A stretch of 42,070 nucleotides of DNA from Jatrophihabitans sp. (GTDB taxonomy: Bacteria; Actinomycetota; Actinomycetes; Mycobacteriales; Jatrophihabitantaceae). Where the stretch lies: assembly GCA_025924515.1 (NCBI GenBank), contig JAICIE010000015.1, positions 1 through 42,070 of the forward strand, in the 5' to 3' direction. The notes below the pieces were generated by a model. It worked only from the letters and a program-made list of their open reading frames with translations. It ran no database searches and was not told where the DNA came from. Below are positions 237 to 10,504 of this stretch, piece by piece; the stretch's first letter is position 1; each line of letters opens with the position of its first letter. A program made the translations under genes and the position numbers.

Positions 237-1013
237 CTACAGCGGCGTCACGTACGCCCCGCTGATCCCGCCGTCGACGAGGAACGTCGACGCGGTGATG
301 AACGACGCATCATCGCTGGCGAGAAACGTGACGGCAGCGGCAATCTCCTCGGCCTCGGCGAAGCGACCCATCGGCACGTGCACCAGCCGGCGGGCCGCCC
401 GCTCGGGATCCTTGGCGAAAAGCTCACGAAGCAGCGGCGTGTTCACCGGGCCCGGGCACAGCGCGTTCACCCGGATCCCCTCCCGGGCGAACTGCACGCC
501 GAGTTCGCGGCTCATCGCGAGCACACCACCCTTGCTGGCGGTGTAGGAGATCTGCGACGTCGCCGAACCGAGGACGGCAACGAAAGACGCCGTGTTGATG
601 ATCGAGCCGCCGCCGGTGGTTCGCATGTGCCCGATGGCGTGCTTGCAGCACAGGTACACCGAGGTCAGATTGACCTCCTGCACCCGCCGCCAGGCGTCGA
701 TGCCGGTGTCAAGGATCGAGTCATCGTCGGCCGGCGAAATGCCCGCGTTGTTGAAAGCGATGTCCACCCGGCCGTACTGCTGCACGATGCCGTCGAACAT
801 GGCGCGCACGCCGTCCTCGTCCGTGACGTCGACCTGCACCGCCGTCCCCCCGATCTCGGCGGCCGCCTTCTCGGCGGCGTCGACATCGATGTCGGCGCAG
901 AAGACCGTCGCGCCCTCACCGGCGAACCGCCGGACCGTGGCCAGGCCGATTCCGCTGCCGGCCCCGGTCACCACGGCGACCTTTCCGGCAAGACGTCCGG
1001 TCGCTGCTGTCAT
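237..1013 (-). CDS. SDR family NAD-type oxidoreductase
   Basis: A classical short-chain dehydrogenase of 258 residues, the normal length. The cofactor motif TGAGSGIG is at residues 16-23, NNAG at 88-91, and the catalytic set is Ser143, Tyr157 and Lys161 (YTASK). An Asp at the end of the second strand (Asp41) favours NAD(H) over NADP(H). It is the last gene of the six-gene minus-strand operon. Its ATG overlaps the TGA of the aldehyde dehydrogenase gene by one base (TGATG), so the two are probably translationally coupled. In this context it most likely oxidises an alcohol or hydroxyacid intermediate of the amine pathway, but the substrate cannot be read from the sequence. The family call is firm; the role is inference. 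Confidence 0.93.
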   Translation of the reverse strand: MTAATGRLAGKVAVVTGAGSGIGLATVRRFAGEGATVFCADIDVDAAEKAAAEIGGTAVQVDVTDEDGVRAMFDGIVQQYGRVDIAFNNAGISPADDDSILDTGIDAWRRVQEVNLTSVYLCCKHAIGHMRTTGGGSIINTASFVAVLGSATSQISYTASKGGVLAMSRELGVQFAREGIRVNALCPGPVNTPLLRELFAKDPERAARRLVHVPMGRFAEAEEIAAAVTFLASDDASFITASTFLVDGGISGAYVTPL

Positions 1014-2383
1014 CAGGACTCCTTACCAGTAGGGACGGTCGAGATGAAGACGTTCTTCGTCTCGGTGAAGGCGAGCGCAGCGTCGGGTCCTAGCTCGCGC
1101 CCGAGCCCGGACATTTTGAACCCGCCGAACGGTGTCCAGTACCGGACCGACGAGTTCGAGTTGACCGACAGGTTTCCTGCCTCTATCCCCCGGCTGACGC
1201 GGATGGCGCGGCCGACGTCGCGGGTCCAGATCGACCCGGACAGCCCGAAATCGCTGTCGTTCGCGATGCGGATCGCGTCATGCTCGTCGTCGAACGGCAC
1301 CACCGCCACAACCGGACCGAAGATTTCCTCGCGGAGCAGTGGGTCGGCCGGGTCGGACGGGGTGACGATCGTCGGCGGGTACCAGAAGCCGGCGCCGTCG
1401 GGCGCGGACCCGCGGAATGCGACCGGCGCGTCCTCGGACACATAGGAGCGCACGCGTTCGCGGTGCTGCGCGCTGATGAGCGGACCCATCTCGGTCTTCT
1501 CGTCGGTGGGATCACCGACGACGACGGCGGCCACGGCCGAGCGCAACAACTCGAGGAACCGGTCGTAGACCGCGCGTTCGACGAGGATCCGTGACCGGGC
1601 GCAACAGTCCTGCCCGGCGTTGTCGAAGACCCCGTACGGCGCAGCGCACGCGGCGGCCTCCAGATCGGCGTCGGCGAAGACCACGTTGGCGCTCTTGCCC
1701 CCGAGTTCGAGGGTGACCGGCTTGACCCGCGCGGCACATCCGGCCATCACCGAACGCCCCACCTCGGTCGACCCCGTAAATACGATCTTCGCCACGTCGG
1801 GGTGTTCGACCAGGCGCTGGCCGACCACGCTTCCCTTGCCGGGGACCACCTGGAACAGATCCTCGGGCAGCCCGGCCTCGAGCGCCAACTCGGCCAGCCG
1901 CAGCGCGGTCAGCGGCGTCAGCTCGGCCGGCTTCAGCACGACCGCGTTGCCGGCGGCGAGCGCCGGACCGAACGCCCACGAGGCAATGGGCATCGGGAAG
2001 TTCCACGGCACGATGGCGCCGACCACTCCCAGCGGCTCGTGGAACGTGACATCGAGCCCGTCGGCAACCGGGATCTGCTGGCCGATCAGCCGTTCCGGCG
2101 CGCCGGAGTAATAGGCGAGGACGTCACGGACGTTGCCCGCCTCCCACCGCGCGTTGCCGATCGGGTGCCCGGAGTTGCGGACCTCGAGCGTCGCGAGTTC
2201 CTCGTTCGCCGCGTCGACGACGTCCGCGAACCGGCGCAGCAACCGCGCCCGGTCGCCCGGAGACAGGGCCTGCCACCGCGGGGCTGCGCGCCGGGCGCGG
2301 GACACAGCCGCGTCGACCGCCTCGGCGTCGAGCGGCTCGACCTCGGCGACGAGCTCCTCGGTGGCGGGGTTGATCACCTTCAT
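1013..2383 (-). CDS. NAD(P)-dependent aldehyde dehydrogenase
   Basis: Aldehyde dehydrogenase superfamily enzyme of 456 residues, slightly short for the family because the N-terminus is compact. Visible motifs are PWNFP (126-130), VFTGSTEVG (201-209), LELGGK with the general-base Glu226, and GQDCCARSR with catalytic Cys260. The ATG at 2383 is chosen because the homologous region starts there (MKVINPATEE) and it lies 4 bp after the stop of the glutamine-synthetase-like gene; the open frame continues upstream without family similarity. By analogy with PuuC in putrescine breakdown it would oxidise the gamma-glutamyl aldehyde, or a free aminoaldehyde, to the acid. It is coupled to the downstream SDR gene. 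Confidence 0.95.
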   Translation of the reverse strand: MKVINPATEELVAEVEPLDAEAVDAAVSRARRAAPRWQALSPGDRARLLRRFADVVDAANEELATLEVRNSGHPIGNARWEAGNVRDVLAYYSGAPERLIGQQIPVADGLDVTFHEPLGVVGAIVPWNFPMPIASWAFGPALAAGNAVVLKPAELTPLTALRLAELALEAGLPEDLFQVVPGKGSVVGQRLVEHPDVAKIVFTGSTEVGRSVMAGCAARVKPVTLELGGKSANVVFADADLEAAACAAPYGVFDNAGQDCCARSRILVERAVYDRFLELLRSAVAAVVVGDPTDEKTEMGPLISAQHRERVRSYVSEDAPVAFRGSAPDGAGFWYPPTIVTPSDPADPLLREEIFGPVVAVVPFDDEHDAIRIANDSDFGLSGSIWTRDVGRAIRVSRGIEAGNLSVNSNSSVRYWTPFGGFKMSGLGRELGPDAALAFTETKNVFISTVPTGKES

Positions 2384-2387
2384 CGCG

Positions 2388-3743
2388 TCACATCCGTTCG
2401 AAGCACCGGACTCGCTCCCAGTCGGTGACCGCGGCGTCGAAGGAGGCGAGCTCGACGCGCGCGGCGTTGGTGTAGTGGTCGACGACGTCCTTGCCGAACG
2501 CTGCCCGGGCGAGCTCGCTGGCCTCGAACAGGTCGGCGGCCTCGCGCAGGGTGGTCGGTACGTGCGCCAGGTCTGCGGCGTAGGCGTTGCCGGTGACGGG
2601 CTCCGGCAGCGGCAGCTCCTCCTCGACACCCCACAGCCCCGCCGCGATCATCCCGGCGACCGCCAGATAAGGGTTGACGTCTCCGCCCGGAAGCCGGTTC
2701 TCGAAGCGAAGGCCCGATCCCGCGCCGACGACCCGGAGTGCACAGGTCCGGTTGTCCGGACCCCACGCCACGGCGGTGGGCGCGAACGTCCCCGGCTGGT
2801 ATCGCTTGTAGCTGTTGACGTTGGGCGCGAACAGGTAGGCCAGCTCGCGCAGGGCCGCGAGCTGACCGGCGAGGAAGTGCTCGAACAGCTCCGACGTCCC
2901 GCCGGCACGGTCTCCTGCGAACACCGGCGTCCCGTCCTCATCGCGCAGGGACAGGTGCACGTGGCAGGAATTCCCCTCGCGGGCGTCGAACTTGGCCATG
3001 AAGGTGAGGGCGCAGCCGTGCGCCGCTGCGATCTCCTTCGCGCCCGTCTTGTAGATCGAGTGGTTGTCGCAGGTCGTCAGCGCGTCGGCGTAGCGGAACG
3101 CGATCTCGTGTTGGCCGAGATTGCACTCCCCCTTCGCGGACTCGACGTACATCCCGGCGTCCCGCATGCCCAGCCGGATGTCCCGCAGCACCGGCTCCAC
3201 CTTGCTGGTGCCGAGAATCGAGTAGTCGACGTTGTAGAGGTTCGCCGGGCGCAGCTCGCTGTAGTTCTTGCTCCAGGCGCTTTCGAAGGACTCGGCGAAC
3301 AGCATGAACTCCAGCTCGGTGCCGACGTAGGCCGTCCAACCCCGCTCGGCCAGCCGCTCGAGCTGTCGCCGCAGCACCTGGCGGGGTGAGGCTACGACCG
3401 GCGTGCCGTCGAGCCACTCGAGGTCCGCGAGCAGCATCGCGGTTCCCGGTTGCCACGGGATCCTGCGCAACGTCGCCAGGTCGGGAACGAGGACGAAGTC
3501 GCCGTACCCCCGCTCCCAGGACGACATCGCATAACCGCCGACCGTGTTCATCTCCACGTCGACGGCGAGGAGGTAGTTGCACCCCTCGGTGCCGTGGTCG
3601 ACGACCTCCTCGAGGAAGTACCGGGCGTCGAGCCGCTTGCCCTGTAGTCGTCCCTGCATGTCGGTGAGCGCCAACACGACGGTGTCGATCTCGTCGCGGC
3701 TGACCATCTCGCGTAGCTCTTCGACCGTCAACGACGGCGGCAT
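2388..3743 (-). CDS. Glutamine-synthetase-like gamma-glutamyl-amine ligase
   Basis: GlnA-superfamily ATP-dependent ligase of 451 residues. Recognisable catalytic elements are the metal-binding Glu pair in GTELEF (141-146), the segment with GE and GQHE (205-213), the His of CHVHLS (260-265), NSYKRYQPG (310-318), the Arg-containing NRTCALR (331-337) and FENRLPGGDVNPYLA (347-361). The neighbouring gamma-glutamyl hydrolase, aldehyde dehydrogenase and permease point to ligation of glutamate to an amine (PuuA, GlnA3 or GlnA4 type) rather than ammonia assimilation. The ATG start has a strong AGGAGGTG ribosome site 7 bp upstream. GlnA4 of Streptomyces is a known gamma-glutamylethanolamide synthetase; assignment to that branch is inference. 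Confidence 0.92.
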   Translation of the reverse strand: MPPSLTVEELREMVSRDEIDTVVLALTDMQGRLQGKRLDARYFLEEVVDHGTEGCNYLLAVDVEMNTVGGYAMSSWERGYGDFVLVPDLATLRRIPWQPGTAMLLADLEWLDGTPVVASPRQVLRRQLERLAERGWTAYVGTELEFMLFAESFESAWSKNYSELRPANLYNVDYSILGTSKVEPVLRDIRLGMRDAGMYVESAKGECNLGQHEIAFRYADALTTCDNHSIYKTGAKEIAAAHGCALTFMAKFDAREGNSCHVHLSLRDEDGTPVFAGDRAGGTSELFEHFLAGQLAALRELAYLFAPNVNSYKRYQPGTFAPTAVAWGPDNRTCALRVVGAGSGLRFENRLPGGDVNPYLAVAGMIAAGLWGVEEELPLPEPVTGNAYAADLAHVPTTLREAADLFEASELARAAFGKDVVDHYTNAARVELASFDAAVTDWERVRCFERM

Positions 3744-3790: not shown

Positions 3791-4528
3791 TCACTTGAGG
3801 AAGCCGCGCAGCAGCGCGGCGGTCCCGTCGACGTGGTCCTCCATCTCGCCGCGCGCACGCTCGCTGTCACCAGCGAGGATGCTCTGCACGATGGCGGCGT
3901 GCTGCGCATCCGAGTGCGCGATGTTGGTCCGCAGCACCGGAATGGCGCGCAGCAACTCGTCCATCCGCAACTGCACGTCGCCCACCAGCGCTGTCACCGA
4001 AGGGCTCCCGCCCACCGCGGCGATCGCCATGTGCAGCCGCGAGTCGGCCAACCGGCGGCGCTTTGGCGGCGCTTCGGTGGCGTCCTCGAGATAGCGGCGC
4101 AGGCTCGACCGGTCGCCCGCGGTGAGCGTGCGGCGTGCGGCGAGGGCGGCGGCGCCCGGCTCGACGACACGGCGGAGGTCGAGTGTGTCTTCCAGCGTCT
4201 CGCGCAACGCCGCCTGACCCGAGGCCGTGCGTCGCGGCGAGCGCACGCGCGGGCCGACGACGAAGGTCCCGCCGCCGCGCCCGCGCCTGGACTCGGCGAG
4301 CCCGGCCTCGCGCAACGCCCGGATGGCCTCCCGAAGCGTCTCGCGGCTGACGCCCAGCGTGTCGGCGAGTTCGCGTTCCGGCGGCAGTCGCGACCCGTCG
4401 ACCAGCACACCGAGCCGGATGCTCTGGGCGAGCCGCTCGACCGTCACCTCGAACGCGTTGCGGACCGGGACGGGCGAGAAGACGGCGCGGCGCCAGAGCG
4501 CCTCGACATTGCCGGACGGCGCCGTCAC
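3791..4528 (-). CDS. GntR/FadR-family transcriptional regulator
   Basis: A regulator of 245 residues. An N-terminal winged helix-turn-helix spans about residues 22-93, with the signature PPERELADTLGVSRETLREA, followed by a wing GRGGGTFV. The helical FCD ligand-binding domain follows from about 115 to 240. The GTG at 4528 overlaps the TGA of the upstream amidotransferase gene by 4 bp (GTGA), so it is chosen over upstream in-frame codons that overlap that gene. FCD regulators usually bind small carboxylates or amine-derived intermediates and repress their own catabolic operon. Here it is encoded inside the operon between hydrolase and ligase, so autoregulation at the 7704-7845 promoter region is likely but not shown. 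Confidence 0.93.
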   Translation of the reverse strand: MTAPSGNVEALWRRAVFSPVPVRNAFEVTVERLAQSIRLGVLVDGSRLPPERELADTLGVSRETLREAIRALREAGLAESRRGRGGGTFVVGPRVRSPRRTASGQAALRETLEDTLDLRRVVEPGAAALAARRTLTAGDRSSLRRYLEDATEAPPKRRRLADSRLHMAIAAVGGSPSVTALVGDVQLRMDELLRAIPVLRTNIAHSDAQHAAIVQSILAGDSERARGEMEDHVDGTAALLRGFLK

Positions 4529-5244
4529 GGTGCGTCCCGGCTCGCGCAGGCGGCCAGGAACCCGGCGAACAACCGAGCGCCGTCGTGCACCTCGGGATGC
4601 CACTGCACCCCGACGGCCCATCCGTCCTCCAGCTCCACCGCCTCGACGATCCCGTCGTCGGTCCAGCCGGTCGCGCTGAGCCCGGACCCGAGGTCGGCGA
4701 CGGCCTGATGGTGATAGGTGGCCACCGTGGCCGACGATCCCAGCAACGCGCCGATCCGGCTGCTGGGCTCGAGCCGAACGTCGTGGCGGCCGTGCACCCC
4801 CGGGGTCGGGCAGTGCTGCTCCGAACCGACGACGTCCGGCAGATGCTGCACCAACGTGCCGCCGAGGGCCACGTTCAGCACCTGCATGCCCCGGCAGATC
4901 GCGAGAACGGGCAACCGCTTGGCCAGCGCGCTCCGTACCAGCAGAAGCTCCCACGCGTCGCGGTCCCCGCGGGGCGCACCGGTGTGCGGGTCGGCCGGCG
5001 CGCCGTAGCGGGCCGGATCCACGTCGGCCCCGCCGGTCACTACCAGACCGGCGAGCGCGTCGGTGATCCGGGCGGCCGCCGCGTCGTCGATCCGCGCCGG
5101 CGGCAGCAGCACGGGAATGCCGCCCGCCTCGGCGACCTCGGCGCTGTACGTCACCGGCAGCAGGTCGGCGGGCTGCCGCCACACGCCCCACGCCGCCGGC
5201 TCCCGATATGTCGTCAGCCCGATCAGGGCCGGGGCCGGACTCAC
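4525..5244 (-). CDS. Class I amidotransferase, gamma-glutamyl-amine hydrolase type
   Basis: Peptidase C26 family protein of 239 residues, like gamma-glutamyl-gamma-aminobutyrate hydrolase (PuuD). The nucleophile is Cys117 in LAICRGMQ, and the charge relay His216 and Glu218 are in WHPE. The oxyanion-side motif VTGGADVDP is at 69-77. In the Puu scheme this enzyme releases glutamate from the gamma-glutamylated end product, recycling the carrier used by the glutamine-synthetase-like ligase. The GTG start overlaps the stop of the FAD oxidoreductase gene by 4 bp, and its own stop overlaps the GTG of the regulator by 4 bp, so three consecutive genes are translationally coupled. Confidence in family is high; the substrate is inferred. 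Confidence 0.92.
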   Translation of the reverse strand: MSPAPALIGLTTYREPAAWGVWRQPADLLPVTYSAEVAEAGGIPVLLPPARIDDAAAARITDALAGLVVTGGADVDPARYGAPADPHTGAPRGDRDAWELLLVRSALAKRLPVLAICRGMQVLNVALGGTLVQHLPDVVGSEQHCPTPGVHGRHDVRLEPSSRIGALLGSSATVATYHHQAVADLGSGLSATGWTDDGIVEAVELEDGWAVGVQWHPEVHDGARLFAGFLAACASRDAP

Positions 5245-7703
5245 GAGTCCGCCCGGATCCGCGCACCGGACGGGTCGAACAGCGGTTCAGCGGCCACCGT
5301 CCCGGGCGTCCAGGTTCCGAAGAGGTCGAGCTCGACCGGGGTGCCGGGACCGGCGTCGACGGGCAGATAGGCGTAGGCGACCGACGCGTCCAGGCTGTAT
5401 GCCGATCCGGCGGATGTGACCCGGCCGCGCACCGCGCCCTCGATGCGCACCGGCTCGCTGCCGAGCGCCACGGCCCGCGGGTCGGCCACGACGATCGGAC
5501 GCAGCCGGCGGCGGGGTGGGCGCTCGCCCGCTGCGAGCAGCGCGTCGCGCCCGCAGAAGCCGCCCTCCTTGTCCGGTTTGACGCAGAAGGCCAGCCCGGC
5601 CTCGTACGGGTCCGTCTCCGCGGTGAGGTCGCTGCTCCAGGCCCGGTAACCCTTTTCCAGCCGCATGCTCTCGATGGCGCGGTATCCGCCAAGGACGAGG
5701 CCGAGCGGCCGCCCGTGCTCGCTCAGCGCGGACCACAGGGCCGCCCCGTACTCGCAGGACGCGTAGAGCTCCCAGCCGAGCTCGCCGACGAAGGTGACCC
5801 GCTGCGCGCGTACCGGAACGTCGGCAACCGTCAACTCCTGCGCCGTCATGAAGGGGAACGCGGCGTTGTCGAGCTCCTCCGGTGTGAGGCCGGTGAGGAT
5901 GCGGCGCGCCTGCGGGCCCCACAGCGCGAAGCAGACCGACGCTCCGGTCACGTCCTCGAGGCTCACCGCGGAACGGCGGCGCCGAGCCTGCCGGCGCAGC
6001 CAGGACAGGTCGTGACCGCCGAACGCCGTGCCCGTGACGATCAGGAACTCGTCCTGTCCGAGGCGGGTGACGGTGAAGTCGCACTCGATGCCGCCCCGGT
6101 CGTTGAGCGCCTGGGTGTAGGTCACATCGCCGATGCGCCGGGCGACGCGGTTGTCGCAGACCCAGTCGAGGAATTCTGCGGCGTCGGGGCCGCTGACCTG
6201 GAGCTTCGCGAAGGAGGACTCGTCGAACAGTCCGGCCGCACTTCGTGTGCCGAGATGCTCGGCGGCGATCGCCGACGACCAATCCCGGCCTGCCCATCCG
6301 CTCGGACGCAGGTGCTCGAGATCGGCCGACTCGTTGGGCCGGTAGTAGTCGACCCGCTCCCACCCGGCTTTCTCAGTGAATACGGCGCCGGCTGCCACAT
6401 GTGCCGGATAGGCGGGCGACATCCGCAGCGGCCGCCCGGCCGAGCGCTGCCGGTTCGGATAGGCGATGTCGTAGTAGGTGCGGTAGGTCTCCAGGGTCCG
6501 CGCCAGCGTGTAGGACGGCGAGCGGTAATGCTTGCCGAATCGGCTCACGTCCATGTGCCAGACGTCGAGGCCAGGGTCGCCGTGCAGAACCCACGCGGCC
6601 ATGACCTGGCCGATCCCGCCGGCGCCGGCGATGCCGTGCGCGCAGAATCCCGCCGCGACGAAGAATCCGGCAACGTCGGTCTCGCCGAGGCAGAACTCGT
6701 TGTCCGGAGTGAACGCCTCCGGCCCGTTGATGACCTGACGGATGCCGAGCTCGCCCATGCGGGGCACGCGCACCGCAGCGTTGGCTGCGATCTCCTCCAT
6801 GCGCGCCCAGTTCTCCGGGAGCAACCGGCCGTTGAAGTCGTGGGGCACCGCATCGAAGCGCGTCGGCGTGGCCGTCCACGGCTCCGGCGTGCGCTCGTAA
6901 CCGCCCATGACCAGCCCGTCGACCTCTTGCCGGAAATAGACCAACAGGTCAGGATCCCGAAGAGTCGGCAGCGTCGTTCCCCGTGACAGGCACGGTTCGG
7001 TGATGACGTACTGGTGCGACATCGGAACGACCGGCACCCGCACACCGGCCATCCGGCCGATCTCCGCGGCGTACATCCCGCCGCAATCGATGACCACCTC
7101 GCAGTCGATGTCGCCGCGATCGGTGCGCACTGAACGGACCCGGCCCTGCGCCACGTCAATGCCGAGGACGCGGGTGTGTTGTTCGATCTGCACGCCGGCC
7201 GCGCGCGCCTCCCTCGCCAGCGCGTAGCACAGCTGCGCGGGGTCGAGATATCCGTCCGAGGGCAGGAACGCTGCGCCGACGACCCCATCGAGGTCGAGCG
7301 CGGGAAACAGATCCTTGGCCTCAGCGGGAGAAATCTCTTCGAGCGGCAGGTCGTAGGTGCGCGCCCAGCTGATCTGCCTGCGGATCTCCTCCAAGCGTTC
7401 GCGGCTGGACGCCAGTTTGATGCTCCCGCACTCGACCCAGCCGAGCCCGTGCTCGGACTGCTGAAGCTTGCGATACAGCTCCACCGAGTACATGTTCATG
7501 CGGGTCAGGGTGGGATCCGCGCGCAGCTGGCCCACGAGACCGGCCGAGTGGAAGGTCGAGCCGCTGGTCAGTTCCGACCGTTCCACCAGGAGGACATCGG
7601 TCTCGCCGGCCCGGGCAAGGTGGAAGGCGACACTTGCGCCGCCGACACCGCCGCCGACGATGACCACCCGTGCCGCCGACGGCAACTGTCTGTCACCAAG
7701 CAC
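5241..7703 (-). CDS. FAD-dependent dimethylglycine/sarcosine dehydrogenase-like enzyme with GcvT domain
   Basis: A two-part enzyme of 820 residues, the usual length of the DMGDH/SARDH family. The N-terminal half is a DAO-type FAD domain with VVIVGGGVGGASVA (residues 13-26) and GSTFHSAG, including a His in the region where the family attaches FAD covalently. An FAO_M-type linker leads into a C-terminal aminomethyltransferase (GcvT) half from about residue 430, with the folate-fold signature LNDRGGIECDFTVTRL. Known members oxidise N-methyl amines and pass the one-carbon unit to tetrahydrofolate. The GTG at 7703 follows GGGGGAGGA at a normal distance and gives the expected N-terminus; open frame further upstream runs into the promoter region. 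It is the first gene of the operon. Confidence 0.9.
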   Translation of the reverse strand: MLGDRQLPSAARVVIVGGGVGGASVAFHLARAGETDVLLVERSELTSGSTFHSAGLVGQLRADPTLTRMNMYSVELYRKLQQSEHGLGWVECGSIKLASSRERLEEIRRQISWARTYDLPLEEISPAEAKDLFPALDLDGVVGAAFLPSDGYLDPAQLCYALAREARAAGVQIEQHTRVLGIDVAQGRVRSVRTDRGDIDCEVVIDCGGMYAAEIGRMAGVRVPVVPMSHQYVITEPCLSRGTTLPTLRDPDLLVYFRQEVDGLVMGGYERTPEPWTATPTRFDAVPHDFNGRLLPENWARMEEIAANAAVRVPRMGELGIRQVINGPEAFTPDNEFCLGETDVAGFFVAAGFCAHGIAGAGGIGQVMAAWVLHGDPGLDVWHMDVSRFGKHYRSPSYTLARTLETYRTYYDIAYPNRQRSAGRPLRMSPAYPAHVAAGAVFTEKAGWERVDYYRPNESADLEHLRPSGWAGRDWSSAIAAEHLGTRSAAGLFDESSFAKLQVSGPDAAEFLDWVCDNRVARRIGDVTYTQALNDRGGIECDFTVTRLGQDEFLIVTGTAFGGHDLSWLRRQARRRRSAVSLEDVTGASVCFALWGPQARRILTGLTPEELDNAAFPFMTAQELTVADVPVRAQRVTFVGELGWELYASCEYGAALWSALSEHGRPLGLVLGGYRAIESMRLEKGYRAWSSDLTAETDPYEAGLAFCVKPDKEGGFCGRDALLAAGERPPRRRLRPIVVADPRAVALGSEPVRIEGAVRGRVTSAGSAYSLDASVAYAYLPVDAGPGTPVELDLFGTWTPGTVAAEPLFDPSGARIRADS

Positions 7704-7845: not shown

Positions 7846-8817
7846 GTGACCGCGCAGCGGCAACCCGCTTCGGAGCCGACGGCCGACGACCCGGTGGCCG
7901 CCGACCGCGTTCGGCTGACGGCCGCACTGCCCGGATTGCCCGCGCTCGGACGGACCGTCCCCGGACTCTCGACGCTGCCCGGCGGACTCACCAACCACAA
8001 CTACCGGGTGATCCTGCCGTCCGGCGGCTCGGCGGTCGTGCGGATGAGCACCGATTCCGACTCCGCACTGGCGATCGACCGCTACGCCGAGTTCCGCAAC
8101 GCGACGACCGCCGCCGACCAGGGCGTCGCGCCTCGGGTGCTCGGTTGCGACCCGGATGCCGGGATCTCGGTGGTCGACTGGGTGGAGGCCCGAACACTGA
8201 GCGCCGCGGACATCGACGACAGCGCCCTGCTGGAGCGGATCGCGGAGACTTGTCGGCAACTGCACGCAGGTCCGCGGTTCGGCAATGACTTCGACATGGC
8301 GGCCGTCCAGCAGCGCTACCTCGCAATGGTGCAGTCAAGCGGCTACCGGTTACCGGCGACCTATCGCGACTTCCTGACGATCTCCGAAGACATCCGCGCA
8401 GCCTTGAATGTCCGACAGCCGCGGCGGACCCCGTGTCACAACGATTTGTTGCCCGCCAACATCCTGGACGACGGCGCGCAGCTGTGGTTCATCGACTACG
8501 AGTACGCCGGGAACAACGATCCGTATTTCGAGCTCGGCAACCTGTGGAGCGAGGCGGAGTTGCCGCTGCCACGGCTCGGCGAGCTCGTCGCCTATTACGT
8601 CGGCGCGGACTCGCCTGAATACACGGCTCGGGCACGGCTCTGGGCAGCCCTCACCCGCTACGGCTGGACCCTGTGGGCGTCTATCCAGCATGCCGTGAGC
8701 CCGGTCGACTTCGACTTCTGGTCCTGGGGACGCGCCAAGTACGAGCTGGCGGTCGCCGAGTTCCAGGGCCCGGATCTACCCCGACTGCTGCAGGACGTCA
8801 CTGGCACGATCAGGTAA
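7846..8817 (+). CDS. Choline/ethanolamine kinase-like phosphotransferase
   Basis: Protein-kinase-like fold phosphotransferase of 323 residues (APH/choline kinase group). The catalytic loop CHNDLLPANIL has His198, Asp200 and Asn205; the metal-binding segment FIDYEYAGNN (Asp217) followed by YFELGNL is the choline kinase variant rather than the aminoglycoside variant. The nucleotide lobe shows GGLTNHNY at 47-53. The GTG at 7846 is preceded by a strong AGGAGGA, and the preceding in-frame sequence overlaps the divergent promoter. It heads a two-gene plus-strand unit with the permease gene 16 bp downstream. The likely substrate is an amino alcohol brought in by that permease. It is probably cytoplasmic; an aminoglycoside kinase is unlikely. 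Confidence 0.88.
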   Translation: MTAQRQPASEPTADDPVAADRVRLTAALPGLPALGRTVPGLSTLPGGLTNHNYRVILPSGGSAVVRMSTDSDSALAIDRYAEFRNATTAADQGVAPRVLGCDPDAGISVVDWVEARTLSAADIDDSALLERIAETCRQLHAGPRFGNDFDMAAVQQRYLAMVQSSGYRLPATYRDFLTISEDIRAALNVRQPRRTPCHNDLLPANILDDGAQLWFIDYEYAGNNDPYFELGNLWSEAELPLPRLGELVAYYVGADSPEYTARARLWAALTRYGWTLWASIQHAVSPVDFDFWSWGRAKYELAVAEFQGPDLPRLLQDVTGTIR

Positions 8818-8833
8818 CGGGAAGGACATCGAC

Positions 8834-10504
8834 GTGGCCGACACACTTCTGGACGAGGACGAACGACGGCTGGCCGAGCTCGGCTACAAGCAGGAGCTCA
8901 GCCGGAGCTGGTCGGGTTTCTCCAACTTCGCCATCTCGTTCTCCATCATCTCGATCCTCGCCGGCTGCTTCACCACCTTCGGGGTCGGATGGAACAACGG
9001 CGGTCCGGCGGCGATCGCCTGGGGCTGGCCGATCATCTCGCTGTTCATCCTCGTCATCGGCATGTGCATGTCCGAACTGGTGTCCGCCTTCCCGACGTCG
9101 GGCGGGATCTATTGGTGGGCGTCGAAGCTCGGTGGACCCAAGGCGGGGTATTACACCGGCTGGCTCAATCTCATCGGACTGCTGGCCATCGACGCGTCGG
9201 TTGCGTACGGCTGCGCCACGTTCCTCGACTCGACCATCGGCACGTACAGCCAATCCTGGGCCGCCAACTACAGCCTCACCCGGGTGTTCGTCGAATTCCT
9301 GATCGTGCTGGCGCTGGCAGCGGGCGTCAACATCTTCTCCAGCCATCTGCTGGCGCTGTTGAACAACATCTCGGTGTGGTGGCACGTCATCGGCGCCGCG
9401 GCCGTGGTCGTCATTCTCTTGGCCATTCCGGCGCACCACGCCAGCATCGGGGCGGTCTTCACCCACACCGTCAACAACACCGGGTTCTTCGGCGGGCGCA
9501 GTGGCGGCGCCGAATTCCTGCTCGGCGTTCTGCCGCTGTCGTTCATCCTCACCCAGTACACGATCACCGGCTACGACGCGTCCGCACACCTGTCCGAGGA
9601 GACGCGGTCGGCCGCCAACTCGGCCGCGAAGGGCATCTGGCGCTCGATCTTCTACTCCGGCATCGGCGGCTGGATCATCCTGCTCGCCTTCCTGTTCGCA
9701 GTACAGAGCGAGTCCGGTGTCACGAAGGGCGGGGGCGCCGTCGCAGTCATCTTCAACCAGGCCTTGACGACACACTGGGCGGCCCTCGTCCTGCTCATCT
9801 CCAGCATGGGCCAGTTCTTCTGCACGGTCGCCTGCATGACGAGTACGACCCGGATGCTGTTCGCGTTCAGCCGGGACGGAGCGGTGCCCGGCGCCCGGCT
9901 CTGGTCGCACCTCAACCACAAACGAGTGCCGGTCTACGGGGTGGTGCTGTCCGCCGTCGTCGCGGTCGTGCTCACCTCTCCCGCTCTCGTCAAGGTCGAT
10001 ATCGGCGGCGCGCCCGTGCCGGTCGCATTCTTCGCGGTCGTGTCGATCGGCGTGATCGGCCTCTACGTCGCCTTCGCCATCCCCATCTGGCTACGCTGGC
10101 GCGCCGGCGCCCGCTTCCGGCCCGGTGGGTGGACCACCGGTCGCCACTACCGGTGGATGAACCTGGTAGCGGTTGCCGAGATCGTGATCACGTCGATCAT
10201 CGCGCTGCTGCCCACGTCGTCGCTCGGCGCGCCTTGGTACAAGGGTTTCGGCTGGTCGAGCCTCAAGTACGTGAACTACACCCCGGTCGTGGTGCTCGGC
10301 GCGATGCTCGTCCTGTGGATCGCGTGGCATGCCAGCGTGAAGCACTGGTTCACCGGACCGAAGACGACGGTCGACCTGCCGTCGGGGATGTCCTCATCCG
10401 ACGAGATGGCGCTGGAGCACTCGCGGGGCGGCCATCTGCACGGCGCAGCGGCGGCGGTTCCGCCGGCCGAGCCGGAGGAACCGCCTGCGCTGCCGGTGAG
10501 CTGA
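8834..10504 (+). CDS. APC-superfamily amino acid/choline-type permease
   Basis: Integral membrane transporter of 556 residues with about 12 hydrophobic segments. The start of the membrane region (SWSGFSNFAISFSIISILAG) and the loop FPTSGGIYWWASKLGGPKAG are typical of the amino acid/choline transporter subgroup of the APC superfamily (TC 2.A.3.4), which includes GABA and choline permeases. TQYTITGYDASAHLSEETR is the conserved segment around helix 6. A roughly 50-residue hydrophilic tail rich in Pro and Glu follows the last helix. It starts with GTG 16 bp after the phosphotransferase gene, behind GAAGGACA. It probably imports the substrate of the divergent catabolic operon. Confidence 0.92.
   Translation: MADTLLDEDERRLAELGYKQELSRSWSGFSNFAISFSIISILAGCFTTFGVGWNNGGPAAIAWGWPIISLFILVIGMCMSELVSAFPTSGGIYWWASKLGGPKAGYYTGWLNLIGLLAIDASVAYGCATFLDSTIGTYSQSWAANYSLTRVFVEFLIVLALAAGVNIFSSHLLALLNNISVWWHVIGAAAVVVILLAIPAHHASIGAVFTHTVNNTGFFGGRSGGAEFLLGVLPLSFILTQYTITGYDASAHLSEETRSAANSAAKGIWRSIFYSGIGGWIILLAFLFAVQSESGVTKGGGAVAVIFNQALTTHWAALVLLISSMGQFFCTVACMTSTTRMLFAFSRDGAVPGARLWSHLNHKRVPVYGVVLSAVVAVVLTSPALVKVDIGGAPVPVAFFAVVSIGVIGLYVAFAIPIWLRWRAGARFRPGGWTTGRHYRWMNLVAVAEIVITSIIALLPTSSLGAPWYKGFGWSSLKYVNYTPVVVLGAMLVLWIAWHASVKHWFTGPKTTVDLPSGMSSSDEMALEHSRGGHLHGAAAAVPPAEPEEPPALPVS

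Follow-up and report, generated by a model that had tools for sequence, protein, structure and literature searches.

A predicted folate-coupled flavoprotein demethylase paired with a kinase-like gene beside a GlnA4-type ethanolamine cluster in Jatrophihabitans

Results

The window analysed here is a 42,070-nucleotide stretch of DNA from Jatrophihabitans sp. (assembly GCA_025924515.1, contig JAICIE010000015.1, positions 1 to 42,070 of the forward strand). The gene under study, termed DMG, lies on the minus strand at 5241..7703, where an open reading frame with a GTG start codon at 7703 encodes an 820-amino-acid protein. This protein has the fold of dimethylglycine dehydrogenase (DMGDH) and dimethylglycine oxidase (DMGO), with flavin adenine dinucleotide (FAD) and tetrahydrofolate (THF) as its expected cofactors, and we predict it to be a demethylase of N-methylated ethanolamines. 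Its single chain carries the Pfam domains DAO (residues 12-371, E = 5e-68) and FAO_M (374-429, 3e-19), followed in the C-terminal half by GCV_T (432-706, 8e-76) and GCV_T_C (732-810, 4e-13). The top relatives in a PDB search, matched over their full length, were rat and human DMGDH and Arthrobacter globiformis DMGO (E = 1e-147 to 1e-140; at most 1e-141 for 4p9s and 1pj5). An AlphaFold model (predicted local distance difference test score 81.5, predicted template-modelling score 0.82) superposes on these three enzymes over its whole length, with template-modelling (TM) scores of 0.91-0.92. Together with the conserved residues described below, these results confirm the DMGDH/GcvT-type flavoprotein that an initial annotation, made from the nucleotide sequence, had placed at 5241-7703.

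Alignment was used to locate the residues most relevant to catalysis (all codons on the minus strand). H52 (codon 7548..7550) is equivalent to DMGO His48 and to His91 of human DMGDH, the site of covalent FAD linkage in the human enzyme (PMC5082570). This histidine is kept in every group tabulated and is the predicted attachment site of an 8alpha-linked covalent FAD. H230 (7014..7016) and Y256 (6936..6938) match His225 and Tyr259 of DMGO, which form the catalytic dyad, and D542 (6078..6080) aligns with DMGO Asp552, which serves folate chemistry. H52, H230, Y256 and D542 are invariant in all rows examined from the window clade and from kinase-linked proteobacterial relatives. R61 (7521..7523) is a candidate anion-binding residue. 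This position is Arg in kinase-linked, phosphonate-linked and 4-methylaminobutyrate oxidase (MabO)-type enzymes and His, Asn or Asp in DMGDH and DMGO. An arginine at this site would fit an anion farther from the nitrogen than that of dimethylglycine; common ancestry accounts for it equally well.

The stop codon of DMG overlaps by 4 bp the GTG start of a gene for a C26 peptidase/class-I glutamine amidotransferase (4525..5244, minus strand; Pfam Peptidase_C26, 2e-61), predicted to be a gamma-glutamylglycine hydrolase. The stop of the hydrolase gene likewise overlaps by 4 bp the start of a gene for an EpuRI-like GntR/FCD regulator (3791..4528, minus strand; Pfam GntR and FCD). Because of these overlaps, DMG is a genuine and probably translationally coupled member of the operon. 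Farther along the same strand lie genes for a GlnA4-type glutamine synthetase (GS)-like enzyme (2388..3743), predicted from PDB bit scores and homologue identity to be a gamma-glutamylethanolamide synthetase, an aldehyde dehydrogenase (ALDH; 1013..2383; Pfam Aldedh, 9e-161), predicted to convert the gamma-glutamylated aldehyde to gamma-glutamylglycine, and a short-chain dehydrogenase (SDR; 237..1013; NCBIfam NF004713, 479 bits versus a cut-off of 404), predicted to be a gamma-glutamylethanolamide dehydrogenase. The ligase scores 429 bits to 11zs and 415 bits to 5dm3, and only 89 bits to 4hpp. It reaches 217 bits with the gamma-glutamylputrescine synthetase model, whose cut-off is 650, and the hydrolase has a distant likeness to PuuD (90 bits, cut-off 266).

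A full GlnA4-type set (SDR, ALDH, GS-like ligase, regulator and C26-type hydrolase) is thus present in the window. In Streptomyces coelicolor, GlnA4 has been demonstrated to be a gamma-glutamylethanolamide synthetase, and its cluster comprises an SDR, an ALDH, glnA4, a regulator, a putative transporter (missing in S. coelicolor itself) and an amidotransferase (PMC6529630). Marine Phaeobacter switches on a homologous gamma-glutamylation route in response to ethanolamine (PMC10132767). The window ligase is 69-73% identical to copies in sampled large genomes of the same class, from genus g33 (69-71% in the four loci examined), where the layout SDR-ALDH-GS with divergent regulator and hydrolase genes agrees with the S. 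coelicolor glnA4 cluster. This gene content predicts that the neighbours of DMG serve the gamma-glutamylation of ethanolamine, in a GlnA4-type cluster like that of Streptomyces.

On the other side of DMG, and divergent from it, lies KIN (7846..8817, plus strand, start codon tentative), a gene for a choline/ethanolamine-kinase-like phosphotransferase (Pfam Choline_kinase, 3e-23; PDB 3dxq, 2.5e-30). Its motifs CHNDLLPAN and IDYEYAGNNDP match the HNDxxxxN and IDxEYxxxND patterns of the Choline_kinase/APH fold, and on this basis the protein is a candidate kinase of choline or ethanolamine. KIN is followed by PERM (8834..10504, plus strand; Pfam AA_permease_2, 1e-42), which encodes an APC-family amino-acid/amine permease and recurs both beside KIN-DMG and beside GlnA4 clusters that lack DMG.

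A scan of named genomes for DMG homologues yielded 80 loci. Of these, 74 contain a choline/ethanolamine-kinase-like gene, which lies within 2 kb in 73; among the six kinase-free loci, four have a short flank on at least one side and two truly have no kinase nearby. An APC permease is found near DMG in 32 of the 80 loci, and at least two of the GS, ALDH, SDR and C26 genes in 15. The latter linkage takes at least seven gene orders and is spread over Pseudonocardiales, Nakamurella, Actinomadura, Nocardioidaceae and Solirubrobacterales. The gamma-glutamyl genes lie to the left of KIN-DMG, to its right or on either side of it, a variety that speaks against plain inheritance of a single layout. An even phylum sample of 297 genomes (threshold for DMG, E ≤ 1e-220) contains DMG in eight genomes besides that of the window, with the kinase adjacent in all eight. 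The notion that GlnA4 always accompanies DMG is false in this sample, where the kinase alone is constant. In a set of 41 close relatives, 13 of the 14 genomes that hold a DMG homologue (E ≤ 1e-150) also have GlnA4, as do 6 of the 27 that hold none; kinship confounds this difference. The flavoprotein is tied far more tightly to the kinase-like gene than to the gamma-glutamyl genes. Since the kinase is constant and GlnA4 is never adjacent in the phylum sample, the KIN-DMG pair is the unit; its association with the ethanolamine cluster recurs without being obligatory.

Several loci show variants of this pairing. Flavoprotein genes are doubled at L176, L179, L180 and L104-L106: either two flavoprotein-kinase pairs stand next to each other, or a DMGO-type flavoprotein adjoins a kinase-linked one with electron-transfer flavoprotein (ETF) genes, perhaps for successive demethylations of a dimethyl compound. 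A plasmid of Arthrobacter sp. U41 (L157:4698-14419) carries a GlnA4-type cluster with choline-kinase-like, inositol-monophosphatase-family and amidase genes and no flavoprotein. A contig labelled as a Spirochaetaceae metagenome-assembled genome (MAG; L053) holds an actinobacterial kinase-flavoprotein-GlnA4 cluster (66-78% identity) and is probably misbinned.

Proteobacterial clusters, for which plasmid gene names follow the PLSDB annotation, place the pair in comparable surroundings. On Salipiger pPABY1, genes for a betaine/choline-type ATP-binding cassette (ABC) transporter, KIN, DMG, EtfB, EtfA, FolD and PurU are followed in one run by the ethanolamine gamma-glutamylation genes, which encode an N-formylglutamate amidohydrolase (taken as the gamma-glutamylglycine hydrolase), a GS-like ligase, an ALDH and an iron alcohol dehydrogenase, and then by genes for GlyA and serine ammonia-lyase. 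On paper, this order would read as a complete route from uptake through demethylation, disposal of electrons and one-carbon units and gamma-glutamylation of ethanolamine to glycine, serine and pyruvate. Nitratireductor has the order EutH-DMG-KIN, and Ruegeria a transporter, the kinase, the flavoprotein and an inositol-monophosphatase-family gene. In Shinella, KIN-DMG occurs with a betaine/choline ABC transporter, an N-formylglutamate amidohydrolase and a GS-like gene whose assignment as the ligase is weak, its product being only ~31% like that of Salipiger.

In Shinella and Roseateles (L155, L156 and L163), the flavoprotein gene is directly followed by genes for a repressor of the formaldehyde/metal-sensitive type and for DmeF-type efflux, an arrangement consistent with formaldehyde leakage during demethylation. 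Sinorhizobium meliloti pSymB (L160:7929-10406) and Aminobacter p2 (L161:7995-10472) encode a DeoR regulator and a THF flavoprotein of the DMGDH fold with no kinase, near 2-aminoethylphosphonate genes and a Na/Pi cotransporter. These flavoproteins are candidate folate-coupled N-methyl-aminoethylphosphonate demethylases, distinct from the published PbfB/C/D enzymes.

The initial annotation had described DMG as the only FAD enzyme present, which holds for the cluster and not for the genome, where seven matches were found. One of these is a DMGO-type paralogue on contig C6, where positions 36000-60346 hold genes for MttB-like methyltransferases, a corrinoid protein, PurU, the DMGO-like enzyme, ETF, sarcosine oxidase subunits and formate-THF ligase (Fhs), identified by eye from translations (ETF by Pfam). 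This cluster reads as a putative set for one-carbon catabolism of betaine, dimethylglycine and sarcosine. In a quick tree with long reference branches, for which PDB reference sequences were taken from the PDB search alignments, the C6 enzyme groups with 1PJ5 (support 100) and the window enzyme falls in a separate clade outside DMGDH/DMGO. Because the C6 set exists, the window enzyme is free for another N-methyl substrate.

Discussion

We hypothesize that the locus serves the breakdown of ethanolamine and of its N-methylated forms, with the flavoprotein demethylating a methylated ethanolamine before glutamylation. We consider this reading probable: gene content, domain architecture, conserved catalytic residues and recurrent linkage were observed, and the substrate, step order, kinase role and electron acceptor are inferred. 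Ethanolamine has one nitrogen, which becomes an amide upon gamma-glutamylation; a DMGDH-type enzyme, which needs a free amine, should therefore act either before GlnA4 or after the hydrolase. Demethylation of N-methyl- or N,N-dimethylethanolamine ahead of GlnA4 also accords with the kinase, with transporters of the choline and EutH types and with loci that hold KIN-DMG and no GS. In the proposed pathway, the permease would import the amino alcohol, and its N-methyl group would be oxidised at the covalently bound FAD with the aid of the His/Tyr dyad. The resulting iminium or formaldehyde equivalent would pass through the internal cavity to THF in the GcvT half, giving 5,10-methylene-THF and ethanolamine (or phosphoethanolamine if the kinase acts first). 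Ethanolamine would then enter the GlnA4 route of gamma-glutamylation, alcohol oxidation by the SDR and aldehyde oxidation by the ALDH, and the C26 enzyme would split gamma-glutamylglycine into glutamate and glycine. ETF, encoded inside the Salipiger cluster, is a candidate electron acceptor. The kinase might either salvage ethanolamine to phosphoethanolamine or phosphorylate the substrate first, with the phosphate taking over the role that the carboxylate has in dimethylglycine.

The second option for the kinase leads to a tentative variant. Here the kinase would first phosphorylate N-methyl- or N,N-dimethylethanolamine on its hydroxyl group, and the flavoprotein would demethylate the phosphorylated compound in a folate-coupled reaction, with the phosphate in place of the carboxylate of dimethylglycine and held by Arg61. 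A phosphatase would then release ethanolamine for gamma-glutamylation, or phosphoethanolamine would return to lipid synthesis. Hints of this kind come from the near-obligate kinase pairing, from inositol-monophosphatase-family genes that adjoin KIN-DMG in Ruegeria, Salipiger and a Nanopelagicaceae-type MAG pair and that stand beside the kinase and GlnA4 cluster of Arthrobacter U41, from DeoR/GlpR regulators in every annotated proteobacterial KIN-DMG cluster seen, and from the presence of Arg61 in the aminoethylphosphonate-linked homologues. The window cluster itself holds no phosphatase gene; several inositol-monophosphatase-family genes lie elsewhere in the genome.

Several observations weigh against demethylation of a methylated ethanolamine ahead of GlnA4. 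The flavoprotein and GlnA4 modules often live apart: GlnA4 is present in three of the eight DMG-bearing genomes of the phylum sample, adjacent in none, versus 48 of 288 DMG-free genomes, and Nonomuraea has a KIN-DMG unit with no pathway nearby. The kinase step would be unexplained if GlnA4 requires free ethanolamine. To our knowledge, members of this fold act on carboxylates (dimethylglycine, sarcosine and N-methylaminobutyrate), and the flavoprotein could act on some other N-methylated amino alcohol or anionic amine. A related explanation is that the amine handled by KIN-DMG is a different one, whether N-methylated, hydroxylated or anionic, and that the proximity of the pair to ethanolamine operons reflects shared regulation or transport only. 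The frequent absence of the GlnA4 cluster beside the pair, its lack of adjacency in the phylum sample and a related MABO-type flavoprotein on a nicotine-strain plasmid speak for this explanation; the repetition of the linkage in many gene orders and two phyla, and the nearby EutH and choline-type transporters and downstream one-carbon and glycine pathway, make it unlikely in our judgement. Demethylation might instead follow hydrolysis, with N-methylethanolamine glutamylated as a secondary amine and processed to gamma-glutamylsarcosine, from which the hydrolase would free sarcosine for conversion by the flavoprotein to glycine and methylene-THF. This order would use identical genes and give identical end products, and DMGDH/DMGO do use sarcosine, though poorly (PMC5082570). 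However, GlnA4 would need to be active on a secondary amine, the flavoprotein and kinase also occur without any GS, and a separate sarcosine oxidase set exists on C6, such that we regard it as quite improbable.

The remaining alternatives assign the flavoprotein a familiar role. It could be an ordinary dimethylglycine dehydrogenase or oxidase of betaine catabolism that adjoins the ethanolamine genes by accident, as ~33% identity and a full fold match might suggest. This is disfavoured by the tree, in which the C6 paralogue falls inside the DMGO clade and the window enzyme outside it, by Arg61 in place of Asn, His or Asp, by the constant kinase partner and by the betaine route already encoded on C6, and it appears very unlikely. 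The initial annotation had instead seen the flavoprotein as a stand-in for PuuB, the oxidase of gamma-glutamyl-polyamine breakdown. Although a GS-like ligase and a distantly PuuD-like hydrolase are present, the ligase is of the GlnA4/5DM3 type, much nearer to 11zs and 5dm3 than to 4hpp, and the cluster has no PuuA-type ligase. The gene set is that of ethanolamine, in which the SDR and ALDH carry out the oxidations, and therefore no amine-oxidase step is vacant for a PuuB substitute. DMG also has a GcvT half and is not single-domain. Given the kind of ligase, the kind of cluster and the chemistry, we reject replacement of PuuB and give it almost no credence. The gamma-glutamyl N-methylamides once suggested as substrates are amides, not amines, and thus poor candidates. 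What stands of the earlier proposal, as the best reading, is N-demethylation with one-carbon recovery, upheld by the folate-coupled architecture and residues and by the gamma-glutamyl link, which recurs in several arrangements and in two phyla; the polyamine context and action on gamma-glutamylated substrates do not stand.

N-methylated ethanolamines occur as bacterial and eukaryotic lipid head-groups and as industrial chemicals. The gene patterns predict that, in this soil actinobacterium, a single cluster could make the nitrogen and carbon of a methylated lipid head-group available for use. If true, KIN-DMG would be a marker for N-methylated ethanolamine breakdown in Actinomycetota and Proteobacteria, and the gamma-glutamyl route for ethanolamine, a recent discovery, would be linked to choline-family nutrients, with the formaldehyde retained on folate. 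It would also give a function to a widespread family labelled only 'FAD-dependent oxidoreductase' beside 'choline kinase family protein'. In the open-licence literature searched, we found no genetic pathway for N-methylated ethanolamine breakdown and nothing relevant on N-methyl- or dimethylethanolamine demethylation or on the combined cluster, which is no proof of novelty.

Comparison with known systems

DMGDH and DMGO (rat 4P9S/4PAB, human 5L46, A. globiformis 1PJ5) resemble DMG in domains, fold (TM 0.91), FAD histidine and His/Tyr dyad. The folate Asp is common to DMG and DMGO, whereas rat DMGDH has Glu at that column. DMG differs from these enzymes in its ~33% identity, its separate clade, Arg61 in place of His/Asn, and kinase and ethanolamine neighbours instead of betaine genes. 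MabO of Arthrobacter nicotine plasmids, identified as such from context with purU/folD adjacent, is THF-linked like DMG, with the same fold, Arg at position 61 and 35.7% identity; unlike DMG, it acts on a C4 amino acid and has neither a kinase nor a GS cluster. PuuB, too, has the DAO fold and oxidises amines with FAD as part of a gamma-glutamyl pathway, but it is single-domain with no folate half, and the free distal amine of its substrate is absent in ethanolamine.

Other FAD enzymes that feed an N-methylated aminoethyl compound to a primary-amine pathway are PbfC and PbfD, the N-methyl-2-aminoethylphosphonate oxidoreductases (PMC10590968). In contrast to DMG, they are not folate-linked flavoproteins, and they cleave the other side of the nitrogen and release methylamine. 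The S. coelicolor SCO1610-1615 GlnA4 cluster shares with the window the SDR, ALDH, GS-like ligase, regulator, C26-type hydrolase and permease, but the published Streptomyces cluster lists neither a THF flavoprotein nor a kinase (PMC6529630). The ethanolamine gene set of Phaeobacter has the ligase, alcohol and aldehyde dehydrogenases and gamma-glutamylglycine hydrolase as in the window, and differs in its TRAP (tripartite ATP-independent periplasmic) transporter and in having no reported demethylase (PMC10132767).

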